Shown piece by piece: positions 2,000 to 60,195 of a DNA stretch of 64,000 bases. The position numbers and the translations under genes are program-made. The DNA is taken from NCBI RefSeq assembly GCF_009725235.1, contig NZ_WJFC01000003.1:1-64000 (forward strand). Reading direction: 5' to 3'. The stretch is from Scytonema sp. UIC 10036 (GTDB lineage: Bacteria > Cyanobacteriota > Cyanobacteriia > Cyanobacteriales > Nostocaceae). Every line of letters begins with the position of its first letter. Within the stretch, counting starts at the first letter, position 1. The notes under the pieces were generated by a model. It was not told the origin of the DNA. It saw only the letters and a list, made by a program, of their open reading frames with translations, and searched no databases.

Positions 2000-2031
2000 T
2001 CCACAAGTTTTCCACTATTTAGATATATCTT
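2000..2031 (+). promoter_or_regulatory. TCCAC-type stress promoter, copy 1
   Basis: Box TCCACAAGTTTTCCACTATT at 2000-2019 is followed by the -10-like hexamer TATCTT at 2026-2031. It points toward the outer-membrane barrel gene that starts at 2259. A half copy of a dispersed repeat (2100-2186) sits in the predicted leader. Confidence 0.8.
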
Positions 2032-2099
2032 CAAACCAGAAGCGAGTGTTTTGTAGTGGAATATCTTGGCAAGCAATGGAATTATCCATGCAGTGGATT

Positions 2100-2186
2100 G
2101 GAAGCATCCCAATTTGGTACATTGCTCTCAGAATAGAATTCTGGGGTTATACAAACAAAATCCGCGCAAGCGGACTTTATATAAGG
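2100..2186. repeat. Partial copy of the 165-bp MITE family
   Basis: The stretch begins GAAGCATCCCAATTTGG, one change from the 17-base terminal repeat of the intact element at 16383-16547. It then continues as the reversed right half of that element (GAATAGAATTCTGGGG, then TATACAAACAAA and a small hairpin CCGCGCAAGCGG). The other terminus is missing. It lies between promoter copy 1 and its gene. Confidence 0.7.
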
Positions 2187-2258
2187 TAATAACACTCAAG
2201 AAATACAAATTGGATTCCTTGAGAACGCCTATTGCAAAATGATTTTAGAGGTTTGGAA

Positions 2259-2891
2259 ATGAAGAATATTTGGTCAAAGCACCTTTTTGAGTTGCTGATT
2301 TTTTCTACAACGACAATTCTTGGAAGCGGGTTGTCTGCTCAAGCACAAACTGCACCGACTTCCGGTAAAATCTCAACTAAGGCTGCCGATTTGTTGACTC
2401 CACAGCCGACCATAAAGCCTACGAATGAAGCCTCTAATGAGGTGGCTCAAGTAGATGTTAACCCAGGTCGAACTACACGTAGTGGTTCTAGTTATATCGG
2501 GATTGCAGGTAACATTGGTCTGGGTGGTGACTCAGCTATAGGCGAAGGTAGCTTTATGGTGATTAGCAAAGTCGGGCTAACGCGAACTATATCTTTGCGA
2601 CCATCTGTAGCGGTTGAAGATGACCCCGTTGTGCTTGTTCCTCTCACCTATGACTTTAACTTACGAAGGGAGGATGTTTTTGAAGAAACTTTTTCTGTAG
2701 CACCCTACGTCGGAGCTGGTGTAGCGATTGAAACGAGCGATGATACGGACGTTGGCTTACTGTTAACTGGTGGTTTAGATGTTCCTCTAAATAACAACTT
2801 CACGGCAAATGCTGCGGTGAATGCAGCCTTTTTGGATGAAACAGATGTGGGGTTAGTGCTGGGAGTTGGTTACAACTTTACTGGTTTCTAG
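2259..2891 (+). CDS. Secreted outer-membrane beta-barrel-like protein
   Basis: A 210-residue protein with a signal peptide ending near AQAQT, then a low-complexity linker rich in T, P and K. The C-terminal part of about 120 residues alternates polar and hydrophobic residues, is rich in glycine, and ends in GYNFTGF with a terminal aromatic residue, as expected of an outer-membrane barrel. It resembles small porin-like or OmpA-like barrels, but I cannot name a family. I chose the ATG at 2259, which gives a clean signal peptide, over an upstream TTG at 2232. The 3' end is copied, in decayed form, at 61808-61895, after the SLH-fasciclin gene. A TCCAC-type promoter lies 230 bases upstream and a terminator hairpin follows. 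Confidence 0.75.
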   Translation: MKNIWSKHLFELLIFSTTTILGSGLSAQAQTAPTSGKISTKAADLLTPQPTIKPTNEASNEVAQVDVNPGRTTRSGSSYIGIAGNIGLGGDSAIGEGSFMVISKVGLTRTISLRPSVAVEDDPVVLVPLTYDFNLRREDVFEETFSVAPYVGAGVAIETSDDTDVGLLLTGGLDVPLNNNFTANAAVNAAFLDETDVGLVLGVGYNFTGF

Positions 2892-2948
2892 AAAGATTAG
2901 AAAATTATTTTTCAGTTAGAGACAAAACTTTCAGTAAAACAAGATTGT

Positions 2949-2975
2949 TGCGCCTTCTGCCTTAGGCGCTTTTTA
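2949..2975 (+). terminator. Rho-independent terminator
   Basis: The 6-base stem GCGCCT/AGGCGC has an 8-base loop and is followed by TTTTT. It lies about 60 bases after the stop of the barrel gene. Confidence 0.75.
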
Positions 2976-3057
2976 CTTCTGCCTCCATGTACTAACTAAC
3001 CGTTTAACAAAGTTGCACTATTTCTTTAGTAGTATTTTTAAGAAAGTAGAGGGTTCC

Positions 3058-3089
3058 TCCACCAGTTCTCCACCTGTTAGATTTAGACT
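3058..3089 (+). promoter_or_regulatory. TCCAC-type stress promoter, copy 2
   Basis: Box TCCACCAGTTCTCCACCTGT (3058-3077) deviates at two positions; hexamer TAGACT at 3084-3089. It directs the PRC-barrel gene at 3146, leaving a leader of only about 50 bases. Confidence 0.75.
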
Positions 3090-3145: not shown

Positions 3146-4153
3146 ATGGCTCTTTACCAGATTGAAGACTTTGATACAAATTACCACGAGAATTCACAAA
3201 ATAATAATATCAAAAATATTGAGGTTTATTCAGACATAAATGACGAAAAAGTTGGCAGTATCAAAACTATTTTAGTTGATGATACAGGTCGTATACGTTA
3301 TTTAGTAGTTGATACAGGTTTTTGGGTTTTTGGCAAGCAAGTATTGCTACCAATTGGTCGTTCTCGTGTAGATTACAATGCAAAGCGTATCTATGCTAAA
3401 GGGCTGACTAAAAACCAAGTAGAAAATTTACCTGAGTTTCAGGATATTGAAAAGGTTGATAGCAATTATGAACAACTGGTACGCAAAGTTTACCGTACTC
3501 CAATAGTAGATCCAATAGTAGAAATTCCTTTGGAGACATCAACGCCTTTAGAAGCATCAGCACCTTTGGATCTTCCACCAGCTTATGCTGAACCGAAAGA
3601 AAAACCTGTTATCAAACCTGCTACCAAACCTGCTACCAAACCTGTCACAACACCTGTTTACCAAAGTGATGCTTACAGTGATACTTACATTTATGAACAA
3701 GAACCTTCTTTGTACGAAGTGAATGAGCAGAATCATCAAAGTCTCAAGCTATATGAAGAACAGCTAATTGCAAATAAAAATCGTGTAAAGAGAGGAGAGG
3801 TAACGGTTGCTAAACACGTGAAAACTGAGACAGCACGAATTTCTGTACCCGTTGAAAAAGAACGAGTGATTGTAGAACGTACTACTCCTACGGACGTTGG
3901 TCAGGTAGTTTCTCCTGACAAAGCAGACTTCCGCGAAGCAGAAGTTGCACGCATAGAGATATATGAAGAAATAGCTCAGATTCAAAAGCAACCTGTAGTG
4001 AGTGAAGAAGTCAAAATTAAGAAGGTTGTTGAACAAGATACACTTGAGACTCAAGAAACGATTCGTCGAGAAGAACTGGACATTCAAACTGATGAACCCA
4101 TTCAACAGGGATCTAGACTAAAACGCCCTCGGACGAATAATAAGTTGCATTAA
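3146..4153 (+). CDS. PRC-barrel / DUF2382 protein, AvaK type
   Basis: A 335-residue soluble protein. The N-terminal PRC barrel (about residues 20-95) contains the family core VGSIKTILVDDTGRIRYLVV and GFWVFGKQVLLPIG. A proline/lysine/threonine-rich linker follows (about 120-185, with PATKPATKPVTTP repeats). The C-terminal charged DUF2382 domain (about 200-325) carries RGEVTVAKHVKTETARISVP and VPVEKERVIVERT. This architecture is that of the akinete/stress marker AvaK and related cyanobacterial proteins induced by dehydration or salt; the biochemical role is unknown. Paralogues are at 20375-21214 (same architecture, no proline linker) and 43691-44200 (DUF2382 missing). The peptidoglycan-binding gene follows 15 bases downstream, the same order as in the 43-44 kb pair. 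The linker length is unusual. Confidence 0.88.
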   Translation: MALYQIEDFDTNYHENSQNNNIKNIEVYSDINDEKVGSIKTILVDDTGRIRYLVVDTGFWVFGKQVLLPIGRSRVDYNAKRIYAKGLTKNQVENLPEFQDIEKVDSNYEQLVRKVYRTPIVDPIVEIPLETSTPLEASAPLDLPPAYAEPKEKPVIKPATKPATKPVTTPVYQSDAYSDTYIYEQEPSLYEVNEQNHQSLKLYEEQLIANKNRVKRGEVTVAKHVKTETARISVPVEKERVIVERTTPTDVGQVVSPDKADFREAEVARIEIYEEIAQIQKQPVVSEEVKIKKVVEQDTLETQETIRREELDIQTDEPIQQGSRLKRPRTNNKLH

Positions 4154-4168
4154 GAGGATTTAACCATC

Positions 4169-4647: not shown

Positions 4648-5049
4648 TCATAACTCAGGGTGCAGCCAGATAAACAGCCCAACAGAAGCAATTGTTCCGA
4701 CAAAGTGAGCGATGATACCACTCATATTTGCCATAGCCACAAAGATATCGAGCGAGCGAATAATGCGAGCCGGGTCATAAATTGCTACCCCTTGAGGTTG
4801 GGCAATGGATTTTGCCAGTAGCAATCCCAGAGCCGATGCACCTCCTATAATGAAGAGCAACATTCCCACAGAAGCTGCAATCACAGCAATTCTTTTTCCT
4901 TCCCAAGCAGTGGAAAGACCGGGAATAACAGTAACTTGCGGTTCTATATCAATGATATAGGGTTCGATTAAACCGTAATTTAAGAGTGTGTCAATCAATC
5001 CCAATAAACCTAGTAAAAAGTATTTAATTATTTTGATAATCCGCTTCAT
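4648..5049 (-). CDS. Small integral membrane protein, unknown family
   Basis: A 133-residue protein with a hydrophobic N-terminus (IIKYFLLGLLGLIDTLLNYG) and two or three further membrane segments (IAVIAASVGMLLFIIGG and FVGTIASVGLFIWLH). The start ATG overlaps the stop of the GH31 gene by 4 bases (ATGA), so translation is coupled. I do not recognise the family. It is probably a membrane partner or a neighbour of the alpha-glucosidase under the same promoter at 7714-7745. Confidence 0.7.
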   Translation of the reverse strand: MKRIIKIIKYFLLGLLGLIDTLLNYGLIEPYIIDIEPQVTVIPGLSTAWEGKRIAVIAASVGMLLFIIGGASALGLLLAKSIAQPQGVAIYDPARIIRSLDIFVAMANMSGIIAHFVGTIASVGLFIWLHPEL

Positions 5050-7499
5050 AAATTAGCTTGCGAATTCTGCACGTATTGAAACTTTCCTTGCAATCGAACT
5101 TGCTCAAACCCATCAACATCCAAACGATTTTCAAAAGAAGCAACCGACTTACCATCTACCCAAGCTTGCTGAAGTTCAAAACCGTGGAGGTGAAGTTGCA
5201 CACTCTTGTAAGGAAAGCGGTACTCTCCTTGCTGTTGCCAAGTCAGTTCCAAACTCTTCTCGTCTCTGCTCAGGTGGAATTCATCTACCCGCCAATTGCC
5301 ATATCCATCACCAGCATCACTATATACCTGACCTTTACAATTTCCTTCCTCTGGAGGATAGATATGGAGAATTAACCTTTCTTCCACTTCCATTGGAAGG
5401 ATACTACCTGCCTTTGCTAGCAGAGGTATTTTTTCTAAAGGTGCTGCTATCTCAATTTGCTTTCCTCCTTTTATCAAAGCATCGTTCCAGAAGTTGTACC
5501 AGTATCCTTTCGGTAAAGTCGCTTTGCGTGAAGTCGCTCCTTCTTCTACAATTGGGTAAACTAAGAGTGCATTGCCTAACAAAAAAGCATCTTCAATATT
5601 CCACAGGTTTTGATTATCGGGCTCAATCCAGAACAGAGGTCGCACGGGGGAATGTCCAGTAAGAGTTGCTTCCCACGCTAAGGTGTAGAAGTAAGGTAAC
5701 AGTCGATAGCGCAAGTGCAAGAATTCTCGAATAATATTGAGCGCCTCTTCACCATAACTCCAAGGGGTACGCGGTTTTGCATTGTCGGCACAATGGGTGC
5801 GACAAAAGGTAAAAAAACAAGCCATTTGGAACCAGCGCAGGTAAAGTTCTGATGAAGGATCTCCTTTAAAACCGCCAATATCCGGTCCAGTATAGGGAAT
5901 GCCTGAAAGTCCCATTCCTAAAACTGTTGGTATCGTTTGACGCAAACCTTCCCAACTGGTAACTATGTCGCCCGTCCATGTCCATGCGTAGCGTTGCAAT
6001 CCAGCCCATCCCGCACGTGCAACAATAAAAGGACGTTGCTCTTGTCTGTACTCACGCAAACTTTCATACCCCGCTTTTGCTTGCAGCAAGCCATAAATGT
6101 TATGTGCCTCCTGGTGGTTACCACCCCGTCCTTCCATAAAGTGTATGGTGTCGCATCTAGGTAGAGTGCGATCGCCCCACAAAACCAAAACTGCTGGTTC
6201 GTTCATATCATGCCAAAATCCTGTAATACCCAAATCAAGCAGATATTCATACTGGCGACTCCACCAATGACGGGCTTGAGGATTTGTGAAATCTGGAAAA
6301 GCACACCATCCGCTCCATACTGGAGCTAGCACTGGATTTCCATTGGGGTATTTGCAAAATACGTCTTGTGCTCGACCCTCTTCAAAAAGTTTATTCTTTC
6401 GATCCGCCTTGATTCCTGGACTGTTGATGGCAATTAACCGCACACCCCGTTCTGCAAGTTCTTTGCTAAATTCAGTCAGTTTGGGAAAGCGGTCTGGGTC
6501 GATGGTGAAGGCGCGGAAGTTTTCTTGGCAGTCAATGTCTAAGTGAATAGCGCTCAAGGGCAGATTGTGGGTTTTAAAGCCATCAGCAGTTTTTCTCACT
6601 TCTTCTTCCGTTTCATATCCCCAGCGAGACTGGTGATAGCCCAAAGCCCAGCGAGGAGGTAAGGGCGGACGACCTGTCAATTGAGTGTAGTGTTCTAGTA
6701 CGCGATCGGGGGAACCAAAGGTCAAATAATAACGCAGCGCTCCTCCTTCAAAATCAACTGTTGCAACATCTTTGAAGGTGAAGGTTGCTGGATAAGAATT
6801 TTCGTAGAAAATGAGGTAACTGCCGTTTTGATACAAACTCATGTAAAGGGGAGTGCATAGATACAGTGGGTCGTCTCCCGGTCCATATATTCCCGGCCAA
6901 TCAGAATTCCACATACGGTAGCTTCTGTTTGGATCGGATCGTAAATTGAAAGGGGCGGCGCGTTCTCCCAAACCATAAATGTGTTCGTCCGGACGCAACT
7001 TCGCCTGATGCACCCAACCCTCATTTTTGAATCGCGGCGATACCCTTACCTGTCTCTTGGGCGGCATTTCTTTCCGCAAAATTTCCCCGTTAGCGTCTTG
7101 AAATTCCAAACCGCCATCGGCACTCACAATAACTTTCAGGGCGGTACTGGATACTGCCCAACAATCATCCTGTTGTTGAAATGTCGTTTCAACAGTTGAC
7201 CAATCATTACAGGCAATGGCATAAGGAATGGGAGGAACACCTAGTTTCCAATCCACTTTGACAAAATCATCTCTTAGAAAACAGATTTCAAGTTCGAGAT
7301 CCTTGAAGTAGAAGCGCCCGCCCTTAGCGGTTTGCTCAGTCCGGACAATGTTTCCAGTTTTTTCAGAAGCTTCTAAAGTTTTGGAATTACGAGTTTGGCG
7401 TTCTAGGCGATCGCGTTGTAGTGGATATATCAGCGACCCTAAAAACCTTTGGAGTTTTATTAAACGTAGGTTTATTGATAGCAGTTTGAGTATCTTCAT
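5046..7499 (-). CDS. GH31 alpha-glucosidase
   Basis: An 817-residue glycoside hydrolase family 31 enzyme that would release glucose from the non-reducing ends of alpha-glucans or maltooligosaccharides. Visible are the N-terminal galactose-mutarotase-like domain (to about residue 260), then the barrel with GYHQSRWGYETEEEVR, LDIDCQENFRAFTIDPDRFP, and the nucleophile motif GFWHDMNEPAV (Asp at about residue 429), WTGDIVTSWEGLR, and GIPYTGPDIGGF. The C-terminal beta domains follow. No signal peptide is seen, so it is probably cytosolic and acts on glycogen-derived sugars. The TCCAC-type promoter at 7714-7745 lies about 215 bases upstream. The GH15 enzyme at 23262 has the same promoter type, which links both to one response. 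Length is normal for the family. Confidence 0.93.
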   Translation of the reverse strand: MKILKLLSINLRLIKLQRFLGSLIYPLQRDRLERQTRNSKTLEASEKTGNIVRTEQTAKGGRFYFKDLELEICFLRDDFVKVDWKLGVPPIPYAIACNDWSTVETTFQQQDDCWAVSSTALKVIVSADGGLEFQDANGEILRKEMPPKRQVRVSPRFKNEGWVHQAKLRPDEHIYGLGERAAPFNLRSDPNRSYRMWNSDWPGIYGPGDDPLYLCTPLYMSLYQNGSYLIFYENSYPATFTFKDVATVDFEGGALRYYLTFGSPDRVLEHYTQLTGRPPLPPRWALGYHQSRWGYETEEEVRKTADGFKTHNLPLSAIHLDIDCQENFRAFTIDPDRFPKLTEFSKELAERGVRLIAINSPGIKADRKNKLFEEGRAQDVFCKYPNGNPVLAPVWSGWCAFPDFTNPQARHWWSRQYEYLLDLGITGFWHDMNEPAVLVLWGDRTLPRCDTIHFMEGRGGNHQEAHNIYGLLQAKAGYESLREYRQEQRPFIVARAGWAGLQRYAWTWTGDIVTSWEGLRQTIPTVLGMGLSGIPYTGPDIGGFKGDPSSELYLRWFQMACFFTFCRTHCADNAKPRTPWSYGEEALNIIREFLHLRYRLLPYFYTLAWEATLTGHSPVRPLFWIEPDNQNLWNIEDAFLLGNALLVYPIVEEGATSRKATLPKGYWYNFWNDALIKGGKQIEIAAPLEKIPLLAKAGSILPMEVEERLILHIYPPEEGNCKGQVYSDAGDGYGNWRVDEFHLSRDEKSLELTWQQQGEYRFPYKSVQLHLHGFELQQAWVDGKSVASFENRLDVDGFEQVRLQGKFQYVQNSQANL

Positions 7500-7713: not shown

Positions 7714-7745
7714 AAGATAAGCTTGAATAGTGGAAAAGTCGTGAA
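7714..7745 (-). promoter_or_regulatory. TCCAC-type stress promoter, copy 3
   Basis: Minus strand: box TTCACGACTTTTCCACTATT (7745-7726), then TATCTT (7719-7714). It points toward the GH31 gene that starts at 7499. The first unit is TTCAC instead of TCCAC. Confidence 0.72.
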
Positions 7746-7913: not shown

Positions 7914-8138
7914 TATCAATTCTCCACGAGTTTTCCACTATTTAATTGTTAATTTAGAGAAACATAGCAGTTCTATTTGCTCTGTAAAAATTATCAATCA
8001 TTTCTAAATCTAGAGTACTAAGAAAAGAGAGAAGAGAGAATTTGACGCATGATTTAAGATTGCTAGAGTATCTTACTCGTTTATAGTTTTTTTAGTTGGA
8101 ATGTAAACTCACACATTGCACCTGTTTCAAAAATCGTT
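7914..8138 (+). repeat. 225-bp duplicated promoter/leader, copy A
   Basis: This stretch aligns without gaps to 10743-10967 with roughly 22 differences counted by eye, about 90 percent identity. It contains promoter copy 4 and about 180 bases of transcribed leader. Similarity stops abruptly at the AAATCGTT end, just before the downstream start codon region. Confidence 0.9.
7923..7955 (+). promoter_or_regulatory. TCCAC-type stress promoter, copy 4
   Basis: Box TCCACGAGTTTTCCACTATT at 7923-7942; hexamer TAATTT at 7950-7955, one base further than in most copies. It points toward the gene at 8159. Confidence 0.8.
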
Positions 8139-8158: not shown

Positions 8159-8548
8159 ATGCATTACAAACAAGCAATACAAACATATTATCCATTCAGA
8201 AATACAACTTATCAGTCAAATCAAAATTATCAAACAATTAAACTTCAACCAACACAATATAATGAGGTCAAAGTCTTTGATACTTTTATTGAGCAAGGAG
8301 GAACTACTCTAGCTTTAATTGTTTTTTTGAGTGGGTTGCTAGCATTTTTAAATATTAAGATTTCAAAAGGAACATCAGAAAATTTATTTAATGACTCAGA
8401 AATTAATTATACTTATCCTTATGATTTGCCCTGCTCAAAATGTTATTTCTTTTCAAAAAACCACTATTTACCCTGTGCCGTCAACCCTACGATTGTCATG
8501 AGTGAAGAAGCAAAGAACTGCTCTGATTATTTATTTTACAAAAAATAG
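8159..8548 (+). CDS. Small membrane protein with C-terminal cysteine motif
   Basis: A 129-residue protein. The polar, asparagine/tyrosine-rich N-terminal part is followed by one membrane segment (TTLALIVFLSGLLAFLNI, about residues 49-66). A C-terminal cysteine signature, CSKCYFFSKNHYLPCAVNP with a later NCSDY, resembles small cyanobacterial proteins ending in a CxxCxxF-CAxxP-CxDY pattern. That pattern suggests metal or redox binding, but no activity is known to me. AGGAG at 8147-8151 precedes the ATG. It lies under promoter copy 4, with a leader of about 200 bases. Confidence 0.65.
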   Translation: MHYKQAIQTYYPFRNTTYQSNQNYQTIKLQPTQYNEVKVFDTFIEQGGTTLALIVFLSGLLAFLNIKISKGTSENLFNDSEINYTYPYDLPCSKCYFFSKNHYLPCAVNPTIVMSEEAKNCSDYLFYKK

Positions 8549-9438: not shown

Positions 9439-9470
9439 TGCACGAGTTTTCCACTATTAAAGTTTAAATT
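9439..9470 (+). promoter_or_regulatory. TCCAC-type stress promoter, copy 5
   Basis: Box TGCACGAGTTTTCCACTATT at 9439-9458; hexamer TAAATT at 9465-9470. It is the stronger of two copies upstream of the fasciclin gene at 9772. Confidence 0.75.
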
Positions 9471-9661: not shown

Positions 9662-9693
9662 TTCACGAAATTTCCACTATCTACCAATAACCT
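9662..9693 (+). promoter_or_regulatory. TCCAC-type stress promoter, copy 6 (degenerate)
   Basis: Box TTCACGAAATTTCCACTATC at 9662-9681; hexamer TAACCT at 9688-9693, still at the standard distance. It would give an 80-base leader for the fasciclin gene. With copy 5 it makes a tandem arrangement 223 bases apart. Confidence 0.55.
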
Positions 9694-9771: not shown

Positions 9772-10524
9772 ATGAAACTCTCATTCAAATTATTTGCTGG
9801 TCTTGCTAGTGCTGTGGGTTTTGCATTTGGAATTCAGGTTCCTACTCTAGCTCAAGCCACCCCCAGACCAACTCAAGTCACCCCTACTCCTAAAGTTGTT
9901 CCAACTCCTAACATCAATAATGTACCTGCGTCAGATCTACCCTTCTTCACCAGTACAAACACTATTGTTGTACCCCGTAATGCCCAATCTATGACTGCTG
10001 GAGAAGTTGTATCCTTAAGTCCATCATTCGAGATGCTCAACTCTCTTTTGCAAGTTGCTGGGCAGAACTCCGATCTCATTTATGAAATCAATAATGATGA
10101 TGACTTTTACAGAGTTTACGCTCCTACTGATGAAGCTTTTGCTGCTCTTCCAATCGGCACTGTTAAACTTCTAGTACAACCGGAAAATCGAGACTTACTC
10201 AAACAAATTCTTTCTTATCACATTAGACAATCAGAAGGAGAAGTAGAGATCCAAGAATCCGGTATTGGAGCTACTTCCACCCCTAACGAGCGGTCATCAG
10301 CCGTATCTCAAGAGCCTGGATTAACTGGAGAAGTAAATGAAGGGTTAGATGCACAGACCTCTGAAGAATTAGTAAGATACAAAGCTCTTGTCATCGGTAC
10401 ACCCCTTCAGGTGGACAACGGTGTTATCTACCCTATTAATCGCTTGTTGCTCCCACCCGAACTGCAAGCTCAACTGAATTCCAGTCTTTATCCTGAAACT
10501 ACTCAGTTGGCTACAAGGAACTAA
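9772..10524 (+). CDS. Secreted fasciclin-domain protein
   Basis: A 250-residue protein with a signal peptide ending near LAQAT, a proline/threonine linker (TPRPTQVTPTPKVVPTP), and one fasciclin (FAS1) domain of about residues 85-240. The domain shows SLSPSFEMLNSLLQVAG, FYRVYAPTDEAFAALP, NRDLLKQILSYHI and GVIYPINRLLLPP. FAS1 domains mediate adhesion or matrix contacts. An insertion rich in E and S lies after the SYHI motif (about residues 160-195) and interrupts the usual H2 region. AGGAGG precedes the ATG. Two TCCAC-type promoters lie upstream. Two other fasciclin genes of this window (60544 intact, 39136 with the domain deleted) share the promoter type. Confidence 0.9.
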   Translation: MKLSFKLFAGLASAVGFAFGIQVPTLAQATPRPTQVTPTPKVVPTPNINNVPASDLPFFTSTNTIVVPRNAQSMTAGEVVSLSPSFEMLNSLLQVAGQNSDLIYEINNDDDFYRVYAPTDEAFAALPIGTVKLLVQPENRDLLKQILSYHIRQSEGEVEIQESGIGATSTPNERSSAVSQEPGLTGEVNEGLDAQTSEELVRYKALVIGTPLQVDNGVIYPINRLLLPPELQAQLNSSLYPETTQLATRN

Positions 10525-10742: not shown

Positions 10743-10967
10743 TATCAATTCTCCACGACTTTTCCACTATTTAATTGTTAAGTTGGAGAAACACAGCAGT
10801 TCTATTTGATCTGTGTAAATTATCAACCATTCCTGAACCAAGAGTGCTAAGAAAAGAGAGAAGAGAGAATTTGACGCGTGATTTAGGATTGCTAGAGTAT
10901 CTTGTTCGTTTATAGTTTTTTTACTTGGAATGACAACTCACATATTGCACCTGTTCCAAAAATCGTT
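10743..10967 (+). repeat. 225-bp duplicated promoter/leader, copy B
   Basis: About 90 percent identical to 7914-8138 without gaps. In copy A the block is followed directly by a gene; here it is followed by a run of T and GAATTC-rich sequence, with no gene for about 440 bases. Confidence 0.9.
10752..10784 (+). promoter_or_regulatory. TCCAC-type stress promoter, copy 7
   Basis: Box TCCACGACTTTTCCACTATT at 10752-10771; hexamer TAAGTT at 10779-10784. The next intact gene in this direction is at 11412, so the transcript would have a leader of about 620 bases that includes the remnant at 11222-11311. Confidence 0.7.
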
Positions 10968-15694: not shown

Positions 15695-15726
15695 AGCATA
15701 AGTCTCAAAGGTGGAAAACTGGTGGA
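15695..15726 (-). promoter_or_regulatory. TCCAC-type stress promoter, copy 8
   Basis: Minus strand: box TCCACCAGTTTTCCACCTTT (15726-15707), then TATGCT (15700-15695). It points toward the lipoprotein gene that starts at 15523. Confidence 0.8.
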
Positions 15727-20257: not shown

Positions 20258-20289
20258 TCCACAAGTTTTCCACCTTTTGAAGATATTCT
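20258..20289 (+). promoter_or_regulatory. TCCAC-type stress promoter, copy 9
   Basis: Box TCCACAAGTTTTCCACCTTT at 20258-20277; hexamer TATTCT at 20284-20289. It points toward the PRC-barrel gene at 20375, giving a leader of about 80 bases. Confidence 0.82.
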
Positions 20290-20374
20290 TTAAAAAAAAT
20301 CCTTGCAATCAAAGAGGATTTATCAAATATTGAAACAGAAAAGTAGACACTCAATTAAGTAGGAGTTGATGCAA

Positions 20375-22851: not shown

Positions 22852-23261
22852 CTGTCCTCCTATAAAATTTTTATCTATCTACATTCATGCTATCCCATAA
22901 CTTTATGCTTAGTTGACTGTCTTCTGGTGAAAGCTACTGAATCTAGCGCATGACTTTAATCATCCTTTAGTTATGCAAGGCTAACTTTCAAGTAGTATTT
23001 TTTAAAATGTTTTAAAGTTTTCCACTAGTTTTCCACTATTAGCATTTAAAATGCAAAAAGAGCAAGTTTTGATGACTACTTAAACAGTTAAGCGGCTCAA
23101 CTTTTCCAATGGGTTGTGATGAACATTTGATTGTATTATCGGCTCTTGCGATCGCGATTTGTGAGAATATTTTTCGCCGTATTTGCAGTTATTTATTTGT
23201 TGCAATTTATTAGAGTTACAGGTTCAGGTACAGATTCTTACTGAAGAGAAGGGCATTAAAA
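22852..23261. other. Divergent spacer holding a TCCAC-type promoter
   Basis: About 410 bases between the YdcF gene (leftward) and the glucoamylase gene (rightward). The only signal I can support is promoter copy 10 at 23021-23052, facing right. Confidence 0.6.
23021..23052 (+). promoter_or_regulatory. TCCAC-type stress promoter, copy 10
   Basis: Box TCCACTAGTTTTCCACTATT at 23021-23040; hexamer TAAAAT at 23047-23052. Here the 11-base unit AGTTTTCCACT occurs twice in perfect tandem (23016-23037), which shows the repeat period plainly. It points toward the glucoamylase gene, leaving a leader of about 200 bases. Confidence 0.85.
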
Positions 23262-38082: not shown

Positions 38083-38114
38083 AAGCTAGAGCTTAAAAGT
38101 GGAAAACTTGAGCA
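38083..38114 (-). promoter_or_regulatory. TCCAC-type stress promoter, copy 11
   Basis: Minus strand: box TGCTCAAGTTTTCCACTTTT (38114-38095), first unit degenerate; then TAGCTT (38088-38083). It points toward the gene at 38006. Confidence 0.65.
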
Positions 38115-38737: not shown

Positions 38738-38769
38738 TCCACAACTTTTCCACCATTTAGAGATATCCT
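38738..38769 (+). promoter_or_regulatory. TCCAC-type stress promoter, copy 12
   Basis: Box TCCACAACTTTTCCACCATT at 38738-38757; hexamer TATCCT at 38764-38769. It points toward the SLH gene at 39136. The next 35 bases (GAAGCAGTTAAGTAGCTTA) are shared with copy 19 at 60164. Confidence 0.8.
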
Positions 38770-38898: not shown

Positions 38899-39135
38899 CT
38901 GAAAATTGCTGTTACTGGCTTTCAGCGACTTAACCTCCACTATCTATAAGCGCTAATTGTTGGGTGTTGCACATTTGAAATGATTTAGAAAGAAACATAA
39001 AGCGTTCAATAACTAAATCAATTTCTTCACTGTGCAATGCTTATTTTTTGCACGCTCCTTTCACTGCAACCCGATACAGGAATTGTATGTGAGGTAAAGC
39101 TTAGAACTCATTTCATAATTTGGAGGATTTTGACA

Positions 39136-44253: not shown

Positions 44254-44285
44254 ATATTAAACCTTAATAGTGGAAAACTAGTGGA
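44254..44285 (-). promoter_or_regulatory. TCCAC-type stress promoter, copy 13
   Basis: Minus strand: box TCCACTAGTTTTCCACTATT (44285-44266), then TAATAT (44259-44254). It points toward the PRC-barrel gene at 44200. Confidence 0.82.
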
Positions 44286-46807: not shown

Positions 46808-46839
46808 AGCGTAAGTATCAATAGTGGAAAACTGGTGGA
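46808..46839 (-). promoter_or_regulatory. TCCAC-type stress promoter, copy 14
   Basis: Minus strand: box TCCACCAGTTTTCCACTATT (46839-46820), then TACGCT (46813-46808). It points toward the HtrA gene at 46746. Confidence 0.82.
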
Positions 46840-48520: not shown

Positions 48521-49930
48521 TCAATTACTAGTTCCTAGCACTCCAAGTAACTGAAGCAGATAGATAATGGCAAAGACGGCGAAAAAGACACCAGCGATCG
48601 CCGTTGCGCCTAAGGTAAACTTGGAGGGACGCAATTCCTTTGGCAGCATCCGGTAGTTTAGGTAGAGAGTTAGCCCAGTGACGATGGGGATGTGGGCAGC
48701 TTCAATTGCTCCTGCCGTTTGCAACAAGCCAACAGGTCTACCGAAGAACAAGTAGATAGCGATCGGTAGAATGGCTAGCAAAACCACAATATAAACACGT
48801 TGTAAAAACTTTTCGCTGTTCCATCGACCCCGGACTCCAAAACCTTGCAGAATAATTTGTGTGCCATCAGCAAACATTCGCCCAAAGCCATCTTCAACTG
48901 ATAAGGTAGTGCTACAGAAGGTAATGAAAACAATAGCCACCATAAACCAGAAGCCAAATGGCCCCCAAAGATTGCCAAGCAGACTACCCAAAGTTTCCGC
49001 GACCTGATTTTCTTTTGGGACTAGCCCCTCTGGACGCAGCAACTCTCCACCAAGAATTAAAAAAGACAGCGCCGCCAACAGCGCACCTACCACCGCTAAG
49101 GTGTTGGAGAAAGTCATCAGAGAAATCCAGCCGCGCAGCTTTTTTCTTTGCTCCTGACTGAGTTGCTTTGGGTCAATTGCCTCTTGTCCTTTGATACCCG
49201 CAGCGCCGTACCCTTTAGCTTCCACCCAATAGGAGTACCACATCAAGCCGGCTGCTCCTGCTAGCATAAAACCCAGCCAAGGTAAGATTTCTTGATATTG
49301 CACGTTATTAGGAATTTGAGGAACTAAACCCCCTGCCAGTTCCCCAATGTTGGGGAAGACAAAAATGGCAGCAACTACCACTGCGATTGTACGGGCGATC
49401 CCCACATAGGAAGAAATTTTTTCCACTACGTTGTATTGCCCTAAAAGGACGATCGCTGCCGTCACAATGATGATAATTACTGTCCACATCTGGACAGTTC
49501 CTCCTGTCATTAAAATCAGTGCTGTGGCGGCAGCACCCGATAATCCTGCAACGGTAGAGATGGCGACAAACACCTGCGGCACCAAAATCAGCCAGACTGC
49601 CCAGTTTTTGGGACCGGGAATTTGCTTGAAACCTTCGAGTATCGTTGCCCCCGTACATACGGAAAAGCGACCTACCTCACGGTTAATAAACCATTTGAGG
49701 ATTACGGCAGCAAGCAGCGCCCATAGGAGAGAATAGCCGTAAAGAGCTGCGATTCTAGGTGTAAACAGTAATTCTCCTGAACCTGCTGCCGAAAGCATCC
49801 ACAAAAAACTCGGTCCCAGCCACAGAAAACGCTGCCAACCCTTTGGCGGCTGCGGTATCTGTCGTTCGCTGCCCTCACTCTGCTTGTTAGATGTCTCTGT
49901 TGAAGAAGTATAATTATTTTTACTGCTCAC
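48521..49930 (-). CDS. NRAMP-like transporter with altered metal-site motifs
   Basis: A 469-residue membrane protein with 11-12 helices in the LeuT-like NRAMP fold. Helix 1 carries LSAAGSGELLFTPRIAALYG in place of the canonical D-P-G-N, and helix 6 carries GLMWYSYWVEAKGYGAAG in place of M-P-H. Thus the manganese/iron ligands of classical NRAMP (Asp, Asn, Met) are not seen. This is the large subgroup annotated as Nramp-family divalent transporters in bacteria, whose substrate may differ (for example magnesium). ATG at 49930 region with a polar N-terminal extension of about 25 residues. Confidence 0.82.
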   Translation of the reverse strand: MSSKNNYTSSTETSNKQSEGSERQIPQPPKGWQRFLWLGPSFLWMLSAAGSGELLFTPRIAALYGYSLLWALLAAVILKWFINREVGRFSVCTGATILEGFKQIPGPKNWAVWLILVPQVFVAISTVAGLSGAAATALILMTGGTVQMWTVIIIIVTAAIVLLGQYNVVEKISSYVGIARTIAVVVAAIFVFPNIGELAGGLVPQIPNNVQYQEILPWLGFMLAGAAGLMWYSYWVEAKGYGAAGIKGQEAIDPKQLSQEQRKKLRGWISLMTFSNTLAVVGALLAALSFLILGGELLRPEGLVPKENQVAETLGSLLGNLWGPFGFWFMVAIVFITFCSTTLSVEDGFGRMFADGTQIILQGFGVRGRWNSEKFLQRVYIVVLLAILPIAIYLFFGRPVGLLQTAGAIEAAHIPIVTGLTLYLNYRMLPKELRPSKFTLGATAIAGVFFAVFAIIYLLQLLGVLGTSN

Positions 49931-50036: not shown

Positions 50037-50174
50037 TTATTGCTGCAAACTAATGTTTTCTGGGGCTATACCCAGACGGTCTTCTTCTTCATATTCGGGT
50101 CTTTCACAGCTAGCGGCAACTGCTAGAAGTGCTCCTATTGCCAGCCAATGACTCAGTTGTTTTGAAACAGTCAT
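50037..50174 (-). CDS. Small lipoprotein, 45 residues
   Basis: ATG 50174 to TAA 50037, with AAGGAG 8 bases before the start. The product has a lipoprotein signal (LAIGALLAVAASC) and an acidic mature part of about 22 residues (ERPEYEEEDRLGIAPENISL). The strong ribosome binding site, lipobox and promoter copy 15 about 180 bases upstream support it as a real gene. Family unknown. Confidence 0.7.
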   Translation of the reverse strand: MTVSKQLSHWLAIGALLAVAASCERPEYEEEDRLGIAPENISLQQ

Positions 50175-50357: not shown

Positions 50358-50389
50358 AGGTTAAACTTCAATAGTGGAAAACTTGTGGA
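50358..50389 (-). promoter_or_regulatory. TCCAC-type stress promoter, copy 15
   Basis: Minus strand: box TCCACAAGTTTTCCACTATT (50389-50370), then TAACCT (50363-50358). The next gene in this direction is the small lipoprotein at 50174. Confidence 0.82.
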
Positions 50390-51466: not shown

Positions 51467-51498
51467 TCCACCAGTTTTCCACCATTGGAACTTAAACT
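51467..51498 (+). promoter_or_regulatory. TCCAC-type stress promoter, copy 16
   Basis: Box TCCACCAGTTTTCCACCATT at 51467-51486; hexamer TAAACT at 51493-51498. It points toward the patatin gene at 51945, which gives a long leader of about 440 bases. Confidence 0.78.
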
Positions 51499-51944: not shown

Positions 51945-53123
51945 ATGCCTTTTCGGATTTTAAGCTTGGATGGTGGAGGTATTCGAGGAGTCATTGCTGC
52001 TAAGATGCTAGCAGCAATTGAAAAGCGAATCGATCAACCTTTGAATGAGTACTTTAATTTGATTGCTGGAACATCAACAGGAGCCATTTTAGCAACTGCG
52101 ATCGCCATAGGGCGCAGTAGTGAGGAAATTGTTGAATTATACAAACAAAAAAGCTCAGCTATCTTTCCTTACAGAAGCCGTTTTTCCTTAGCGCGAATTC
52201 CCTTAATTTTGCAGTACGGTTTGTCCGCTCCCAAGTTCTCAGACGATGGTTTGATTCAAGTTCTTAAACAAGCTTTTGGGAAAACAAGACTTTTTGATGT
52301 CCTTTCACCATTACTGTTAATTCTCTCCTACGACACGATTACCCGAAAACCAATTATTTTTAAAAGCTGGCGTCAAGACAAAGATTATGAGAATGTACCG
52401 CTCTGGGAAGCGTGTGTCTGTTCGGCATCAGCTCCAACTTATTTTCCAGCACATAAACTAGACAAAAAAGTTAATGGTATAGTACAAAATGCATCTGCAT
52501 ATACAGTCAAGCTAGATGAAAATGCGTCAAAAGTTGACGATGTATATAACAATACAAATATTTTCATCACTCGTGGTACGGGCGGCGGTCAAGCTCGCAC
52601 CCTCGTAAAGTATGAGGGATTTACTCGAATAGCGAAGATAAACCAACCTTGGGATGTTATTCCTGACAATACCTCTACCTACTTAATTAATTTTTTATAC
52701 TCTGCCATTGATGGTGGTGTTGCTGCCAACAACCCCTCTGCTAGTGCTGTTGCTGAAGCACTGAGGTTAGGCTACGCAATTGAAGATATTACCGTCCTTT
52801 CAATAGGAACAGGCGATCGCACGCGGATAATTCCTTACAAACAAGCGCGAGAATCGGGTCTAATAGAATGGGCACAACCACTGATTGGTGTTTTGTTTGA
52901 TGCCTCATCAGACGTTTACGAGTACATTGCCAACCAAATAATGCATAATCGCCTCTTACGCTTGCAATTCAAACTCGATCGGCAGCTAACGGGGCAACGT
53001 TTAAGCGATGATATTGATGATGCAACTCAAGAGAATATCAACAATTTGATAGAAGCGGCAGAGGTTTATATTAACCAACAGCAGGTACAAAAAAAATTGC
53101 AAGAATTTTTGCAAATGAGTTAA
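51945..53123 (+). CDS. Patatin-like phospholipase
   Basis: A 392-residue enzyme that would hydrolyse acyl chains from membrane lipids. It starts RILSLDGGGIRGVIAAKMLA (oxyanion hole G-G-G-x-R-G) and carries the nucleophile motif NLIAGTSTGAIL (Ser at about residue 45) and the catalytic Asp in SAIDGGVAANNPS (about 265). No membrane segment or partner domain. The context has no cyclic-nucleotide synthase, so it does not look like a CBASS effector. AAGGACAAGAG precedes the ATG; the promoter is probably copy 16. Confidence 0.92.
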   Translation: MPFRILSLDGGGIRGVIAAKMLAAIEKRIDQPLNEYFNLIAGTSTGAILATAIAIGRSSEEIVELYKQKSSAIFPYRSRFSLARIPLILQYGLSAPKFSDDGLIQVLKQAFGKTRLFDVLSPLLLILSYDTITRKPIIFKSWRQDKDYENVPLWEACVCSASAPTYFPAHKLDKKVNGIVQNASAYTVKLDENASKVDDVYNNTNIFITRGTGGGQARTLVKYEGFTRIAKINQPWDVIPDNTSTYLINFLYSAIDGGVAANNPSASAVAEALRLGYAIEDITVLSIGTGDRTRIIPYKQARESGLIEWAQPLIGVLFDASSDVYEYIANQIMHNRLLRLQFKLDRQLTGQRLSDDIDDATQENINNLIEAAEVYINQQQVQKKLQEFLQMS

Positions 53124-56307: not shown

Positions 56308-57129
56308 TTATTGCGGAATTGCTGAGGGGTACACTTCTGTGGCAACGAGTACAGGTTTGTTGCTATACTCAGCTTCTAGCTTCCGCCTCAAGTCCAAATC
56401 CCAGGTGAGTTCGTAATCCCGCTCAAGTTCAGCGACGACAAAAGGACGAAGCACACCTGTCACTGCTACCTTTTCACCTTCAGTCACCTTTGCCTGTGGA
56501 GTCGGGTGTAAGACCAGCAAATCTTCTCCACCAAACAATTTGTCTTCATCCAAGGTGAAGGAATTCGCGCTTCTAATGTTTTCGACTTCACCTGTCACAG
56601 CCAGTCTTTTACCGTAGTATTGCCTGGGGTCTGTGGTAATTTCACCAGGTTTGGGTGCTTGTGCAAGGGACTGTGCAATAATTGCAGGTTTGTTTTCGTA
56701 CTCTGCGTACAACTTTGGATCTAAATCTAAATTGTATTCTCGCTCAATATCGGCAACCACAAATTGACGAACCGGACCTGTAGCCTGAATTGGTGTACCT
56801 GAGTCAGCAGGCAAAACAAACGGTTTCCCTGAAGCATTGACAACTAGGATAGGTTCGCTGCTAAAGAATTGCTTATCCCTAATCGTAAAGGTTGATGGAG
56901 TGATTTTCTCCACAGGTGTACTTCTAACCGTAACGGTTTTTCCAATCAATTGGTTTGTGTTATCGACAACTTCTTCTGTAGTGACATTGTTTTCTGGTGG
57001 TTCTGGATCGCGTGCTTCCAAGTTATTGGTACAAGCGGGAAGCATTACAACCGCTATTGCTAGAGCAATAGCCCTTTTGGGATTCCACAGTTTGTGGATG
57101 AAATTGTCTTTTTGAAGAAATCTATTCAT
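56308..57129 (-). CDS. Repeat-containing lipoprotein, paralogue of 14660
   Basis: A 273-residue lipoprotein with lipobox MLPAC at about residue 32. Three internal units repeat the pattern DIEREYNLDLDPKLYAEYEN / ELERDYELTWDLDLRRKLEA and KPVLVATEVYPSA; it aligns along its whole length with the protein at 14660-15523. The family appears to be a cyanobacterial envelope lipoprotein without known function. Promoter copy 17 lies about 190 bases upstream, the same arrangement as for the paralogue. Confidence 0.82.
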   Translation of the reverse strand: MNRFLQKDNFIHKLWNPKRAIALAIAVVMLPACTNNLEARDPEPPENNVTTEEVVDNTNQLIGKTVTVRSTPVEKITPSTFTIRDKQFFSSEPILVVNASGKPFVLPADSGTPIQATGPVRQFVVADIEREYNLDLDPKLYAEYENKPAIIAQSLAQAPKPGEITTDPRQYYGKRLAVTGEVENIRSANSFTLDEDKLFGGEDLLVLHPTPQAKVTEGEKVAVTGVLRPFVVAELERDYELTWDLDLRRKLEAEYSNKPVLVATEVYPSAIPQ

Positions 57130-57318: not shown

Positions 57319-57350
57319 AAGTTAAGCTGCAATAGTGGAAAACTTGTGGA
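57319..57350 (-). promoter_or_regulatory. TCCAC-type stress promoter, copy 17
   Basis: Minus strand: box TCCACAAGTTTTCCACTATT (57350-57331), then TAACTT (57324-57319). It points toward the lipoprotein gene at 57129. Confidence 0.83.
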
Positions 57351-57616: not shown

Positions 57617-57886
57617 TTAACGTTTGCGGCTCAATTTAATTAAAAATCCTACTAAACCTACTATAATAGCGATCGCTAATAAAGGCACTAGATTAAATCG
57701 TATGCCGGAACCGCTTGCCTCATTCTTCCAGTTCAGAATCCACAAGCTACCAATACTAAGTTCAAAGGAGGACACTTGTAGAAAAAGAAAAAGTGCAGGC
57801 AACCCAATGTGAATTGCAAGCAGTACCAAGAATGTTCCCACACTCAGGCTTAGCCAATTTTTCAAAAATGACCAAATATTTTTCAT
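57617..57886 (-). CDS. Small two-helix membrane protein
   Basis: An 89-residue protein with an N-terminal helix (LSVGTFLVLLAIHIGLPALF) and a C-terminal helix (LVPLLAIAIIVGLVGFLI) ending KLSRKR. No family recognised. Promoter copy 18 (degenerate) lies about 110 bases upstream, so it may belong to the same regulon. Confidence 0.65.
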   Translation of the reverse strand: MKNIWSFLKNWLSLSVGTFLVLLAIHIGLPALFLFLQVSSFELSIGSLWILNWKNEASGSGIRFNLVPLLAIAIIVGLVGFLIKLSRKR

Positions 57887-57995
57887 GTCTCAATCCATTG
57901 ATTTTCCAGGAGCCGATACTTTGAAAAAGTTCGATTGTGACTCAAACTAATTTTTAGACTTGCTTGGTTTGAGGACAACACTATATTTGTTGCCT

Positions 57996-58027
57996 AAATT
58001 AGACTGAAAAAGTGGAAAAATGGAGCA
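57996..58027 (-). promoter_or_regulatory. TCCAC-type stress promoter, copy 18 (degenerate)
   Basis: Minus strand: box TGCTCCATTTTTCCACTTTT (58027-58008), only the second unit intact; then TAATTT (58001-57996) at the standard distance. It points toward the gene at 57886. Confidence 0.55.
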
Positions 58028-58082
58028 GAAATATAGCAATCCTGCGAAATCATTTATGAAAAAACGCCAGAGAGAATAGAAT

Positions 58083-60116
58083 ATGCTGAAATTGACGCGC
58101 TCTCAATTAAAACACTATAGCGTCCCCATAGTAACGGTTTTGCTGGCTCTACTACTGACACGATTGCTATTGTATCTGCACAAGTTGACCATTTACCCAC
58201 TATTTTTGGCTGCTGTTATGGTGAGTTCTTGGTATGGTGGTATAGGACCGGGGCTGTTGGCAACTGTTTTGTCTGCTGTAGCTAGCACTTACTTCTTTAG
58301 ACCGAGCTACTCATGGGCTGTGAGTTTGTCCAGTTTAGTGGGGTTAGCCCAGTTTGTGTTCGTGGCACTGCTGATCAATTCGTTAACTTCGTCTCTACGC
58401 TTTGCACGACAGCAAGCTGAGATGAATGCGCGTGCAGCCCAGCTCAATCACGAGCGCTTACTTCAAAGTCAGGCAAGCTTGCGCCAAAGTGAAGAGCGTT
58501 ACCGTTTGCTAGTAGAAGGAGCCAGAAACTACGCCATTTTCATGCTCGATCCGAACGGTTACTTTGTTAGTTGGAATATTGGAGCAGAACGTATTTTAGG
58601 CTATCAGGAACAAGAGATTCTCGGTCAACCTTTTGAGCAAATTTTTACACCGGAAGCAATTGAGCAAGGCAAACCTCAGCAAATACTGAGGAAGGCACTC
58701 GCTGAAGGTTTTTCTAGAGAAAATCGCTTGCACATCCGTAAGGATGGCACGCATTTCTGGGCGCATTGTGTCATCACACCCCTACAAGATGAGAACGGGA
58801 GTTTGCGCGGCTTTGCAAAAATTATGCAAGATATCACCGAGCGCACGCAGGTTGAGGAAGAACGCCAGCAACTATTGCTACGCGAACAAGCTGCACGCGA
58901 GTCAGCAGAGGCAGCAAACCGCTCAAAGGACGAATTCTTAGCAATAGTCTCTCATGAACTCCGTACTCCCATGACCGCAATTCTGGGATGGGCTGGGATG
59001 TTACAAACAGGTATGCTAGATGAGTCTAGGGCTGCTGTTGCAATTGAAACGATTGAGCGGAACGCCAACTTGCAGATGCAACTTATTGAAGACCTGCTTG
59101 ATATTTCACGTATTGTTAGGGGAGATATTTCGCTAAACTGCCACTCAGTTAACCTAATGGACGTGATAACCGCAGCTATCGAGGTTGTGCAAGGAGCCGC
59201 GAATGCTAAGGCAATTCAACTGGAATCTGTGCTTGATACTTCAGTAGAGCCAATTTGGGGTGACTCAGATCGCTTGCAACAGGTCGTGTTAAATCTACTT
59301 TCCAATGCAATCAAATTTACACCCAACGGGGGACGGGTTGAGGTACGATTGTCAAACGAAGGGAGCCGGGAACAATCTCCCCACTCCCCAAGTTATGCCC
59401 AGATTCAAGTCCGTGACACGGGTAAGGGTATCAGTGCTGACTTTCTACCCTACGTTTTCGAGCGCTTCCGTCAAGCAGATGGCACAAGTACTCGTTCCAA
59501 TAAGGGGCTGGGTTTAGGGTTAGCGATCGCACGTCATCTAGTAGAATTGCACGGCGGTACTATCCAAGTAGAAAGTCCGGGCGAAGGACAAGGAGCAACG
59601 TTCACTGTGCAGTTGCCATTGGTAGCAGTTTCCTCACCAGAGAATTCTCAACTAAACAATCGGGATCGGCAGATACAACCGTTGGCTGTGAAAGAAGACT
59701 CAGAACCATTAGACAATCCTCTGAGACTCGACGGGTTGGGAGTGCTAGTTGTGGATGATGAAGTTGATGCGCGGGAGTGGATTAGCACGGTGCTTGCGGA
59801 GCGTGGAGCTCGAGCGATCGCTGTTGGCTCGGTAGGTGAGGCGCTTGCGGCACTCGAACAATTCAGACCAGATGTACTGGTAAGCGACATCGGGATGCCT
59901 GATGAGGACGGCTACGCACTAATCCGCAAAATCAGGGAACTTGAGCCGGAGATAGGCGATCGCATTCAGGCGGTTGCACTTACGGGGTATGCCAGGGAAG
60001 AAGATTACACAGAGGCTATTAACGCCGGATTCCAGTTACATATAGCTAAACCAGTTAGGGCAGCTGAGTTGGTTGCGGCTGTCGCTAGCCTTGCCAAAAT
60101 GCCTGAAGAACCTTAA
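58083..60116 (+). CDS. DUF4118-PAS hybrid histidine kinase
   Basis: A 677-residue sensor kinase. Four-helix DUF4118 membrane domain (about 10-110), as in KdpD; PAS domain (about 135-255, FVSWNIGAERILGYQEQEI); a coiled linker; HisKA with the phospho-acceptor His in AIVSHELRTPMTA (about residue 291); ATPase with NLLSNAIKFTPNGG, DTGKGIS and KGLGLGLAIARHL; and a C-terminal receiver with Asp in VLVSDIGMPDEDG (about residue 602) and lysine in HIAKPV. It would need a phosphotransfer partner. Two shortened copies of the gene exist (38297-38690 and 7795-7910). Each is followed within about 60 bases by a TCCAC-type promoter. Confidence 0.93.
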   Translation: MLKLTRSQLKHYSVPIVTVLLALLLTRLLLYLHKLTIYPLFLAAVMVSSWYGGIGPGLLATVLSAVASTYFFRPSYSWAVSLSSLVGLAQFVFVALLINSLTSSLRFARQQAEMNARAAQLNHERLLQSQASLRQSEERYRLLVEGARNYAIFMLDPNGYFVSWNIGAERILGYQEQEILGQPFEQIFTPEAIEQGKPQQILRKALAEGFSRENRLHIRKDGTHFWAHCVITPLQDENGSLRGFAKIMQDITERTQVEEERQQLLLREQAARESAEAANRSKDEFLAIVSHELRTPMTAILGWAGMLQTGMLDESRAAVAIETIERNANLQMQLIEDLLDISRIVRGDISLNCHSVNLMDVITAAIEVVQGAANAKAIQLESVLDTSVEPIWGDSDRLQQVVLNLLSNAIKFTPNGGRVEVRLSNEGSREQSPHSPSYAQIQVRDTGKGISADFLPYVFERFRQADGTSTRSNKGLGLGLAIARHLVELHGGTIQVESPGEGQGATFTVQLPLVAVSSPENSQLNNRDRQIQPLAVKEDSEPLDNPLRLDGLGVLVVDDEVDAREWISTVLAERGARAIAVGSVGEALAALEQFRPDVLVSDIGMPDEDGYALIRKIRELEPEIGDRIQAVALTGYAREEDYTEAINAGFQLHIAKPVRAAELVAAVASLAKMPEEP

Positions 60117-60163
60117 GCGATAGGCAAGCCCTAAAAAGTAGTTTTGTCAACATAATTGTCAGA

Positions 60164-60195
60164 TCCACGAGTTTTCCACCTTTCAGGGCTATCTT
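60164..60195 (+). promoter_or_regulatory. TCCAC-type stress promoter, copy 19
   Basis: Box TCCACGAGTTTTCCACCTTT at 60164-60183; hexamer TATCTT at 60190-60195. It points toward the SLH-fasciclin gene at 60544, leaving a leader of about 340 bases. Confidence 0.82.

Follow-up and report, generated by a model that had tools for sequence, protein, structure and literature searches.

The window analysed here is a stretch of 64,000 nt from Scytonema sp. UIC 10036 (contig NZ_WJFC01000003.1, positions 1-64,000, forward strand), in which a TCCAC-containing box recurs 19 times upstream of genes. An initial annotation, made from the letters alone, had described the box as a 20-base element that marks a large, undescribed-looking regulon with an envelope and stress theme. 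All 19 sites are present at the coordinates and on the strands listed below, and the size and theme of the regulon are supported by sequence. It also appears to be undescribed, as neither the box nor the kinase-regulator pair discussed below was found in print in full-text searches that covered open PubMed Central (PMC) papers and were judged mainly by their listings.

Box sites and their genes in the window

A plain consensus scan (at most 3 mismatches) recovered 17 of the 19 sites, compared to 0.02 expected in dinucleotide shuffles, and missed those at 9662(+) and 58027(-). The annotation had also proposed a scan with a position matrix built from the window copies. To avoid circularity, we used a 36-column matrix trained on 97 sites from other genomes (G001-G010) and on no window site. 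Its top 19 matches in the window are exactly the 19 sites, with scores of 19.7-46.7 bits, and the next best match reaches -1.2. In 60 first-order Markov shuffles of the window, the matrix score never exceeded 10.3.

Box 1 (2000..2019, +; score 46.7), with its -10 element at 27-32 from the box start, stands before a gene at 2232 encoding 219 amino acids (aa) with a signal-like N-terminus. Box 2 (3058..3077, +) precedes a PRC-DUF2382 (AvaK-type) gene (3146-4153), box 3 (7726..7745, -) a GH31 glucosidase gene (5046-7499), and box 4 (7923..7942, +) a 129-aa gene (8159-8548). Two boxes are located before the fasciclin gene at 9772-10524, namely box 5 (9439..9458, +) and box 6 (9662..9681, +), the latter scoring 27.2 bits with more than three mismatches to the consensus. 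The target of box 7 (10752..10771, +) is less certain than the annotation had assumed and could be either an 89-aa open reading frame (ORF) with a TTG start at 11042 or a 108-aa gene at 11412. Box 8 (15707..15726, -) precedes a 287-aa lipoprotein-like gene (14660-15523), box 9 (20258..20277, +) another PRC-DUF2382 gene (20366-21214), and box 10 (23021..23040, +) a GH15 glucoamylase-type gene (23262-25661).

Further downstream, box 11 (38095..38114, -) lies before a 133-aa gene (37605-38006) followed by a receiver gene (37002-37451), box 12 (38738..38757, +) before an SLH gene (39037-39957), box 13 (44266..44285, -) before a PRC gene (43691-44200), and box 14 (46820..46839, -) before a trypsin/HtrA-type protease gene (45844-46746). 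Box 15 (50370..50389, -) is followed by a 45-aa lipoprotein-like ORF (50037-50174) and then by an Nramp gene (48521-49930). Box 16 (51467..51486, +) stands 478 bp before a patatin gene (51945-53123), box 17 (57331..57350, -) before a 273-aa lipoprotein-like gene (56308-57129), and box 18 (58008..58027, -), the weakest site with 19.7 bits, before an 89-aa gene (57617-57886) that is divergent from a hybrid kinase gene. Box 19 (60164..60183, +) precedes an SLH-fasciclin gene (60544-61776). A search of NCBIfam with ten window targets gave nothing for seven of them and only below-cut-off matches for three.

According to the annotation, transporters and the DedA, NRAMP-like, MscS and ECF genes lack the box. 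Relatives of the two ECF genes (0/2 each), of the DedA gene (0/5) and of the first MscS gene (0/4) are indeed without it, and one of 13 relatives of the second MscS gene carries it. For the Nramp gene the claim is doubtful: box 15 precedes the 45-aa ORF and then Nramp, and in 3 of 12 cases a box stands immediately upstream of the Nramp ortholog. The 45-aa ORF is the first one behind box 15 and has a Shine-Dalgarno-like AAGGAG.

The annotation had further stated that the strand of all 19 sites matches the next gene. This is true for 8 of 8 tandem sites; the others, 10 divergent sites and one inside a same-strand ORF, are uninformative. Counting ORFs of at least 90 aa, no convergent site exists in the window, and a same-strand start lies within 500 bp of 17 of the 19 sites. 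Among 108 sites in the other box islands retrieved at that stage, 54 match the next gene and 4 do not, 45 are divergent, one is convergent, one lies inside an opposite ORF and three are at edges; for 92 of the 108, a same-strand start is found within 500 bp. Some of the mismatches may be missed small genes, as ORFs were called mechanically.

A promoter unit with a direct repeat

The anatomy of the site was derived from 125 island sites picked by the 20-mer alone (at most 3 mismatches). The full unit consists of TTYTCCAC, 3 bp (NAG), TTTTCCAC, 10 bp and TANNNT. The two half-sites are head-to-tail 8-mers that form a direct repeat with an 11-bp period, and their majority sequences over 175 sites are TTCTCCACGAG for the first and TTTTCCACTAT for the second. 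The conserved columns run from -2 to 20, and a separate conserved block comprises T27, A28 and T32; the flanks are near background except for an A/T-rich upstream part and a weak A-run at 34-36. The site thus extends beyond the 20 bases of the annotation, as a fixed -10 element belongs to the unit.

Of the 125 island sites, 114 carry TANNNT at positions 27-32 (16 of 18 in the window), compared to 0-18 at nine shifted positions. Behind exact 20-mers (121 matches to a pattern without the -10, sorted by record titles), the element follows 91 of 94 cyanobacterial matches and only 1 of 27 in other organisms. A -10 block alone, trained on other genomes, places 18 of the 19 window sites in the top 1.3% of positions and the remaining one at the 94th percentile.

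In Escherichia coli, the Pho box consists of a pair of 8-bp direct repeats that are separated by a 3-bp linker and followed, after 10 bp, by TAN3T (PMC1906773), and direct repeats are recognised by members of the OmpR/PhoB family (PMC3264566). The island half-sites, repeated directly at an 11-bp period and placed 10 bp before TAN3T, show the arrangement expected of an OmpR/PhoB-type promoter. The unit thus has the layout of a class II activator site of this family, with a sequence of its own.

Clustering of the box in cyanobacterial islands

An exact scan for TCCACNAGTTTTCCACYWTT in one genome for each of 84,980 species yielded 109 stretches, 82 of them cyanobacterial and 27 not, judged by title. 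The 27 non-cyanobacterial stretches have one match each; about 7.5 chance matches are expected with uniform bases, a number that rises for AT-rich genomes.

A single stretch of 7-73 kb accounts for at least 84% of the copies in 8 of 10 genomes: 19 of 21 sites in 73 kb (G001), 12 of 12 in 67 kb (G002), 11 of 13 in 37 kb (G003), 10 of 10 in 50 kb (G004), 4 of 4 in 7 kb (G007), 5 of 5 in 19 kb (G008), 9 of 10 in 34 kb (G009) and 6 of 7 in 16 kb (G010). The fragmented assembly G006 has 11 of 21 sites on one contig, and in the Fischerella genome G005 four sites are scattered over 0.75 Mb. A further genome, G027, carries 21 of its 27 sites in 75 kb and four at a second place.

The window represents such an island: pieces of it, mostly from the left half, are 96-99% identical to one G027 locus, and most of the right half is 77-92% identical to another. 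Two places in G027, C1:72-148 kb and C1:5.55-5.58 Mb, harbor paralogous island parts (GH15, TamB, HAD, receiver and the 287-aa gene), which points to island duplication. At the 5.57-Mb locus of G027, TamB is preceded by a box that the window lacks. Regarding a plasmid origin, megablast of window positions 1-25000 and 39001-64000 returned only 70- and 49-bp pieces. A TnpB-like ORF (30015-31706, -) lies inside a stretch (about 29.7-31.8 kb) without alignment to the G027 loci. A PBP-like ORF (29628-30086) has no box and does not reach the length of its G027 relative, which has 358 aa.

Conservation analysis of the targets showed that orthologs with a box directly in front number 14 of 14 for the SLH-fasciclin gene, 11 of 14 for the PRC gene, 10 of 12 for the 133-aa gene, 8 of 10 for the first PRC-DUF2382 gene and 10 of 20 for the 273-aa lipoprotein-like family. 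Receiver orthologs have it in 10 of 19 cases, with others standing behind the 133-aa gene. Lower counts were obtained for the second PRC-DUF2382 gene (2/6) and the patatin gene (1/4). Taken over all targets, a core of the regulon is thus stable while the rest turns over. AvaK-type Npun_F5451 and F5452 of Nostoc punctiforme rise under alkane overproduction (PMC7660261), which fits the stress theme and says nothing of the box.

A hybrid kinase and an OmpR-type regulator accompany the box

Two candidate relay components are encoded in the window. The hybrid histidine kinase (58083-60116, +), with the Pfam architecture DUF4118-PAS-HisKA-HATPase-REC, is the proposed sensor, and the single-domain receiver (Pfam) behind box 11 (37002-37451, -) is the proposed relay or phosphate-sink partner. 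A DUF4118-only ORF (38099-38680, +) is probably what remains of a second copy of the hybrid kinase; at the matching place, G027 carries a kinase copy of 559 aa.

A PF00486 search in eight genomes revealed a protein of 600-640 aa inside the islands, whose architecture in two relatives is REC-Trans_reg_C-Hpt-REC-REC (Pfam). PF00072 and PF00486, the pair expected of an OmpR/PhoB-type regulator, are both present in these two relatives' proteins. The window itself does not contain the regulator gene; at its end, an M48 peptidase gene begins (63801-64000, +; cut by the window end). The peptidase start shares 76% identity over 66 aa with a G027 gene, and in G027 the OmpR-type regulator follows 441 bp after the M48 peptidase gene. 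Based on this match and the synteny with G027, the regulator gene of the window is predicted about 1 kb past position 64000. Solved relatives of the regulator's first 226 residues belong to the OmpR family, RegX3, RpaA and KdpE among them.

An intact regulator was found in the box regions of 14 of the 16 genomes from which such regions had been retrieved at that stage; it is broken in G075, and none is present in the G007 stretch. The regulator starts 31-271 bp from the hybrid kinase gene in G001, G002, G004, G135 and at both G006 loci; elsewhere this distance is 1.3-15 kb, and in G005 the kinase lies on another stretch. Since a kinase and a DNA-binding regulator occur together in most related box islands, it is likely this regulator that binds the box. 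Two regulator copies exist in G001 (one at G001:C1:3687159-3688964) and in G006, where the copies on C22 and C23 each stand beside a separate box group. G075 (L163) represents a decayed island, with regulator and kinase broken and one box at no more than 1 mismatch left in the genome.

Co-occurrence was analyzed in 192 genomes of the family, with six regulator candidates scored per genome, and the following figures hold among the matches listed. Full-length regulator matches split into a group with at least 58% identity, in 31 genomes, and matches of at most 54% elsewhere, except for the broken copy in G075 (59%). The box at no more than 1 mismatch occurs in 40 of the 192 genomes, comprising 31 of 31 with a full-length regulator (at least 58%) and 9 of the 161 others (Fisher 5e-28), and the reversed-pattern control gave 0 in all 192. 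Orthologs of the window kinase with at least 60% identity are present in 30 of the 192 genomes, all within the 31 regulator-positive ones, G031 being the one without. At least four sites with up to 3 mismatches were detected in 26 of the 31 regulator-positive genomes and in 6 of the 161 others. Of these six, G016, G047, G049 and G064 have only matches with 2-3 mismatches, G021 has one 1-mismatch site plus weaker ones, and G007 has real sites.

Beyond the family, we inspected twelve genomes behind exact matches, and only the five cyanobacteria among them match the regulator at the set limit. UBA11371 carries a long regulator form (66%) on the same contig as the boxes, and Gloeocapsopsis, Cyanosarcina and Hydrococcus encode a short REC-winged helix-turn-helix (wHTH)-Hpt form (62-66%). 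The gene order in Gloeocapsopsis and Cyanosarcina is short regulator, kinase, box and receiver gene, and regulator (in its long form), kinase, box and receiver gene also stand side by side in UBA11371. The HtrA-type protease gene of Gloeocapsopsis has a box at its start, and a Leptolyngbyaceae record shows a 52% regulator relative beside the box.

In a REC-wHTH tree that took in eight two-domain paralogs (long paralogs were left out), the island forms, long and short, are separated from these paralogs and from a G007 protein with an SH-like support of 0.984.

Observations that weigh against the island regulator as reader of the box

Several observations argue against assigning the box to the island regulator. 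First, co-occurrence is confounded by physical linkage. The search for short regulator forms extended to only 12 of the family genomes, because the one over all 192 scored six candidates each. As this deeper look at twelve chosen genomes revealed a short REC-wHTH-Hpt regulator (67%) in G016, genomes "without regulator" are those without the full-length form. G016 itself has only scattered sites with 2-3 mismatches, none near the regulator gene; a diverged box near this gene was looked for and not found.

Calothrix brevissima (G007) keeps four good boxes, but searches for orthologs of regulator and kinase found none in this genome. Its nearest homolog, a 225-aa REC-wHTH protein, was considered as the missing regulator and rejected, as it falls outside the island clade in the tree. 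A strain that lacks sphR still carries predicted Pho boxes (PMC1906773), so recent regulator loss in G007 is possible, if unproven. Eight further genomes without the full-length regulator, one of them G075, have one site each, and G021 has two weaker sites on a contig with two regulator paralogs. Some of the counted orthologs are interrupted: regulators contain a stop in G018 and G190, kinases contain stops in G018, G102 and G178, and in G009, G112 and G115 only the N-terminal part of the kinase aligned. Outside the family, the short regulator of Hydrococcus lies on a different contig from the boxes, and in CCP2 the box is exact but scores weakly with the matrix (19.0), and no relative exceeds 55% over REC-wHTH-Hpt.

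Many window targets are also not shared, with a box before 0 of 11 HtrA, 0 of 8 GH15 and 2 of 11 GH31 orthologs. None of 20 kinase orthologs has a box, and none of 16 mapped regulator genes has one directly in front. One SLH-fasciclin gene (G003, G014 and G053, same strand) or one 219-aa-type gene (G010) stands between box and regulator, and read-through into the regulator is possible as only this one gene intervenes there.

The two G021 sites (G021:C35:11269 and 11426) are neighbours, with second halves TTGTCCAC or TTCTCCAC, and the two paralogs on the same contig show 60% identity over 232 aa and 51%; together they are perhaps a diverged sister system. A site TCCACAAGTTTTCCACAATTTACATTTA is common to G094, G114 and G126, which all are without the full-length regulator, and the G094 site (L186 7112) has no same-strand gene of at least 100 aa close downstream.

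Alternative explanations for the box

The alternative that survives best, although we consider it unlikely, is that another OmpR-type paralog or several wHTH proteins read the box, the island regulator being a mere neighbour. G007 has boxes without the island regulator, each of eight genomes contains 24-33 PF00486 matches, and much of the recognition helix is common to some paralogs. However, the conserved linkage and co-occurrence favour the island regulator, and no DNA-binding family appears among the 25 of 55 Pfam families listed for 35 island proteins of G001 and G003 without window homologs, which is a partial view.

Slightly less probable still is the proposal of the annotation that the box serves OrrA, a regulator of the LuxR type that acts under salt and dehydration in Anabaena and Nostoc. 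The box targets include AvaK-type genes, and OrrA reportedly controls avaKa in Anabaena, to go by the title of a 2022 paper by Kimura. In Nostoc flagelliforme, OrrA acts with the kinase Dsp1, and both the induction of sunscreen genes by osmotic stress and the tolerance of water deficit require OrrA (PMC13131328). Yet OrrA is a LuxR-family factor (PMC13131328), whereas the direct repeat of the box, with its 11-bp period, has the spacing of a Pho box and OmpR/PhoB layout, and most islands carry an OmpR-type regulator and kinase of their own that are tied to the box across genomes. OrrA thus becomes the less likely candidate, because of its LuxR type and because the island's own regulator gene is predicted just past the window end. 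An OrrA gene was not seen in the islands, where none was sought. OrrA may act in parallel, and nothing here ties it to the box.

An alternative sigma factor that uses the box as its -35 element is very improbable. The fixed spacing to the -10 would suit such a factor; however, the distances from the ends of the TCCAC repeats to the TA of the -10, 21 and 10 bp, do not correspond to a normal -35 spacing, the tandem 11-bp repeat would be left unexplained, and the -10 is an ordinary TANNNT. Finally, the half-sites resemble DnaA boxes (consensus TTTTCCACA), and replication-origin literature turns up for TTTTCCAC, but the chance that the sites are DnaA boxes or a dispersed repeat without a regulon is negligible, as only 13 of 125 second half-sites read TTTTCCACA, the sites face genes and carry a -10, and conservation stops at the promoter, unlike in a mobile repeat.

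A putative regulon island with its own relay

Together, the promoter layout, the clustering and the co-occurring genes suggest that the 19 boxes are promoter elements of one island and probably the sites of an OmpR/PhoB-type regulator, which would activate envelope and predicted drying-stress genes together. A regulator dimer would bind one half-site per subunit, in place of a -35 element, and the bound regulator would recruit RNA polymerase by class II activation, as for PhoB. The DUF4118 hybrid kinase would pass phosphate on, by way of receiver and Hpt domains, to the first receiver of the regulator, and the single receiver, itself behind a box, would close a feedback loop. Judging by gene content and the names of the hosts, the signal is probably water loss or osmotic stress.

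A broader proposal, for and against which we see the balance as even, is that of an ancient self-contained regulon island. One promoter class would precede up to about 20 genes, many of them envelope genes, within about 75 kb, together with their own relay of hybrid kinase, receiver and REC-wHTH-Hpt(-REC-REC) regulator. Distant cyanobacteria would have inherited and lost the island mostly in one piece, and it would act as the main switch for envelope rebuilding on drying, parallel to OrrA.

It is an open question how cyanobacteria of soil and rock perceive drying and remodel their envelope, and OrrA covers part of it. Naming the box together with a candidate regulator and a candidate sensor makes this question directly testable, places many unknown genes in one putative regulon, and shows a regulon held together as a genomic island.

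Comparison with known systems

The OrrA regulon of Anabaena and Nostoc resembles the island in its probable stimulus and in some target families (AvaK), and differs in that its DNA-binding protein is of the LuxR family. KdpD, the sensor of KdpD/KdpE, carries a DUF4118 domain like the window kinase, which in contrast is a hybrid with PAS and receiver domains and has no KdpD domain in the Pfam listing; no kdpFABC gene was seen among the window proteins scanned with Pfam. KdpD/KdpE is also alike in using an OmpR-type regulator on direct repeats (PMC3264566). The CdgK/CdgS phosphorelay of Anabaena PCC 7120, likewise from a filamentous cyanobacterium, shares the order hybrid kinase, Hpt and receiver; its output is a diguanylate cyclase, its Hpt is on the kinase, and the excerpt of that report mentions no promoter box (PMC9927289).

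A further parallel is the Pho box with PhoB of E. coli and SphR of Synechocystis, where an OmpR/PhoB-type regulator acts on 8-bp direct repeats, in E. coli with the spacing described above (PMC1906773). The sequence differs: the Pho consensus, CTGTACTA or CTTAACCT, is not that of the island half-site TTYTCCAC, and SphR has at least three repeats, unlike the two of the island. The targets differ as well, being envelope and stress genes, with no pst/phoA-type gene among the box targets in a Pfam analysis of 50 window ORFs. In contrast to PhoB and SphR, the island regulator has extra Hpt and receiver domains, and its boxes are gathered in one island.

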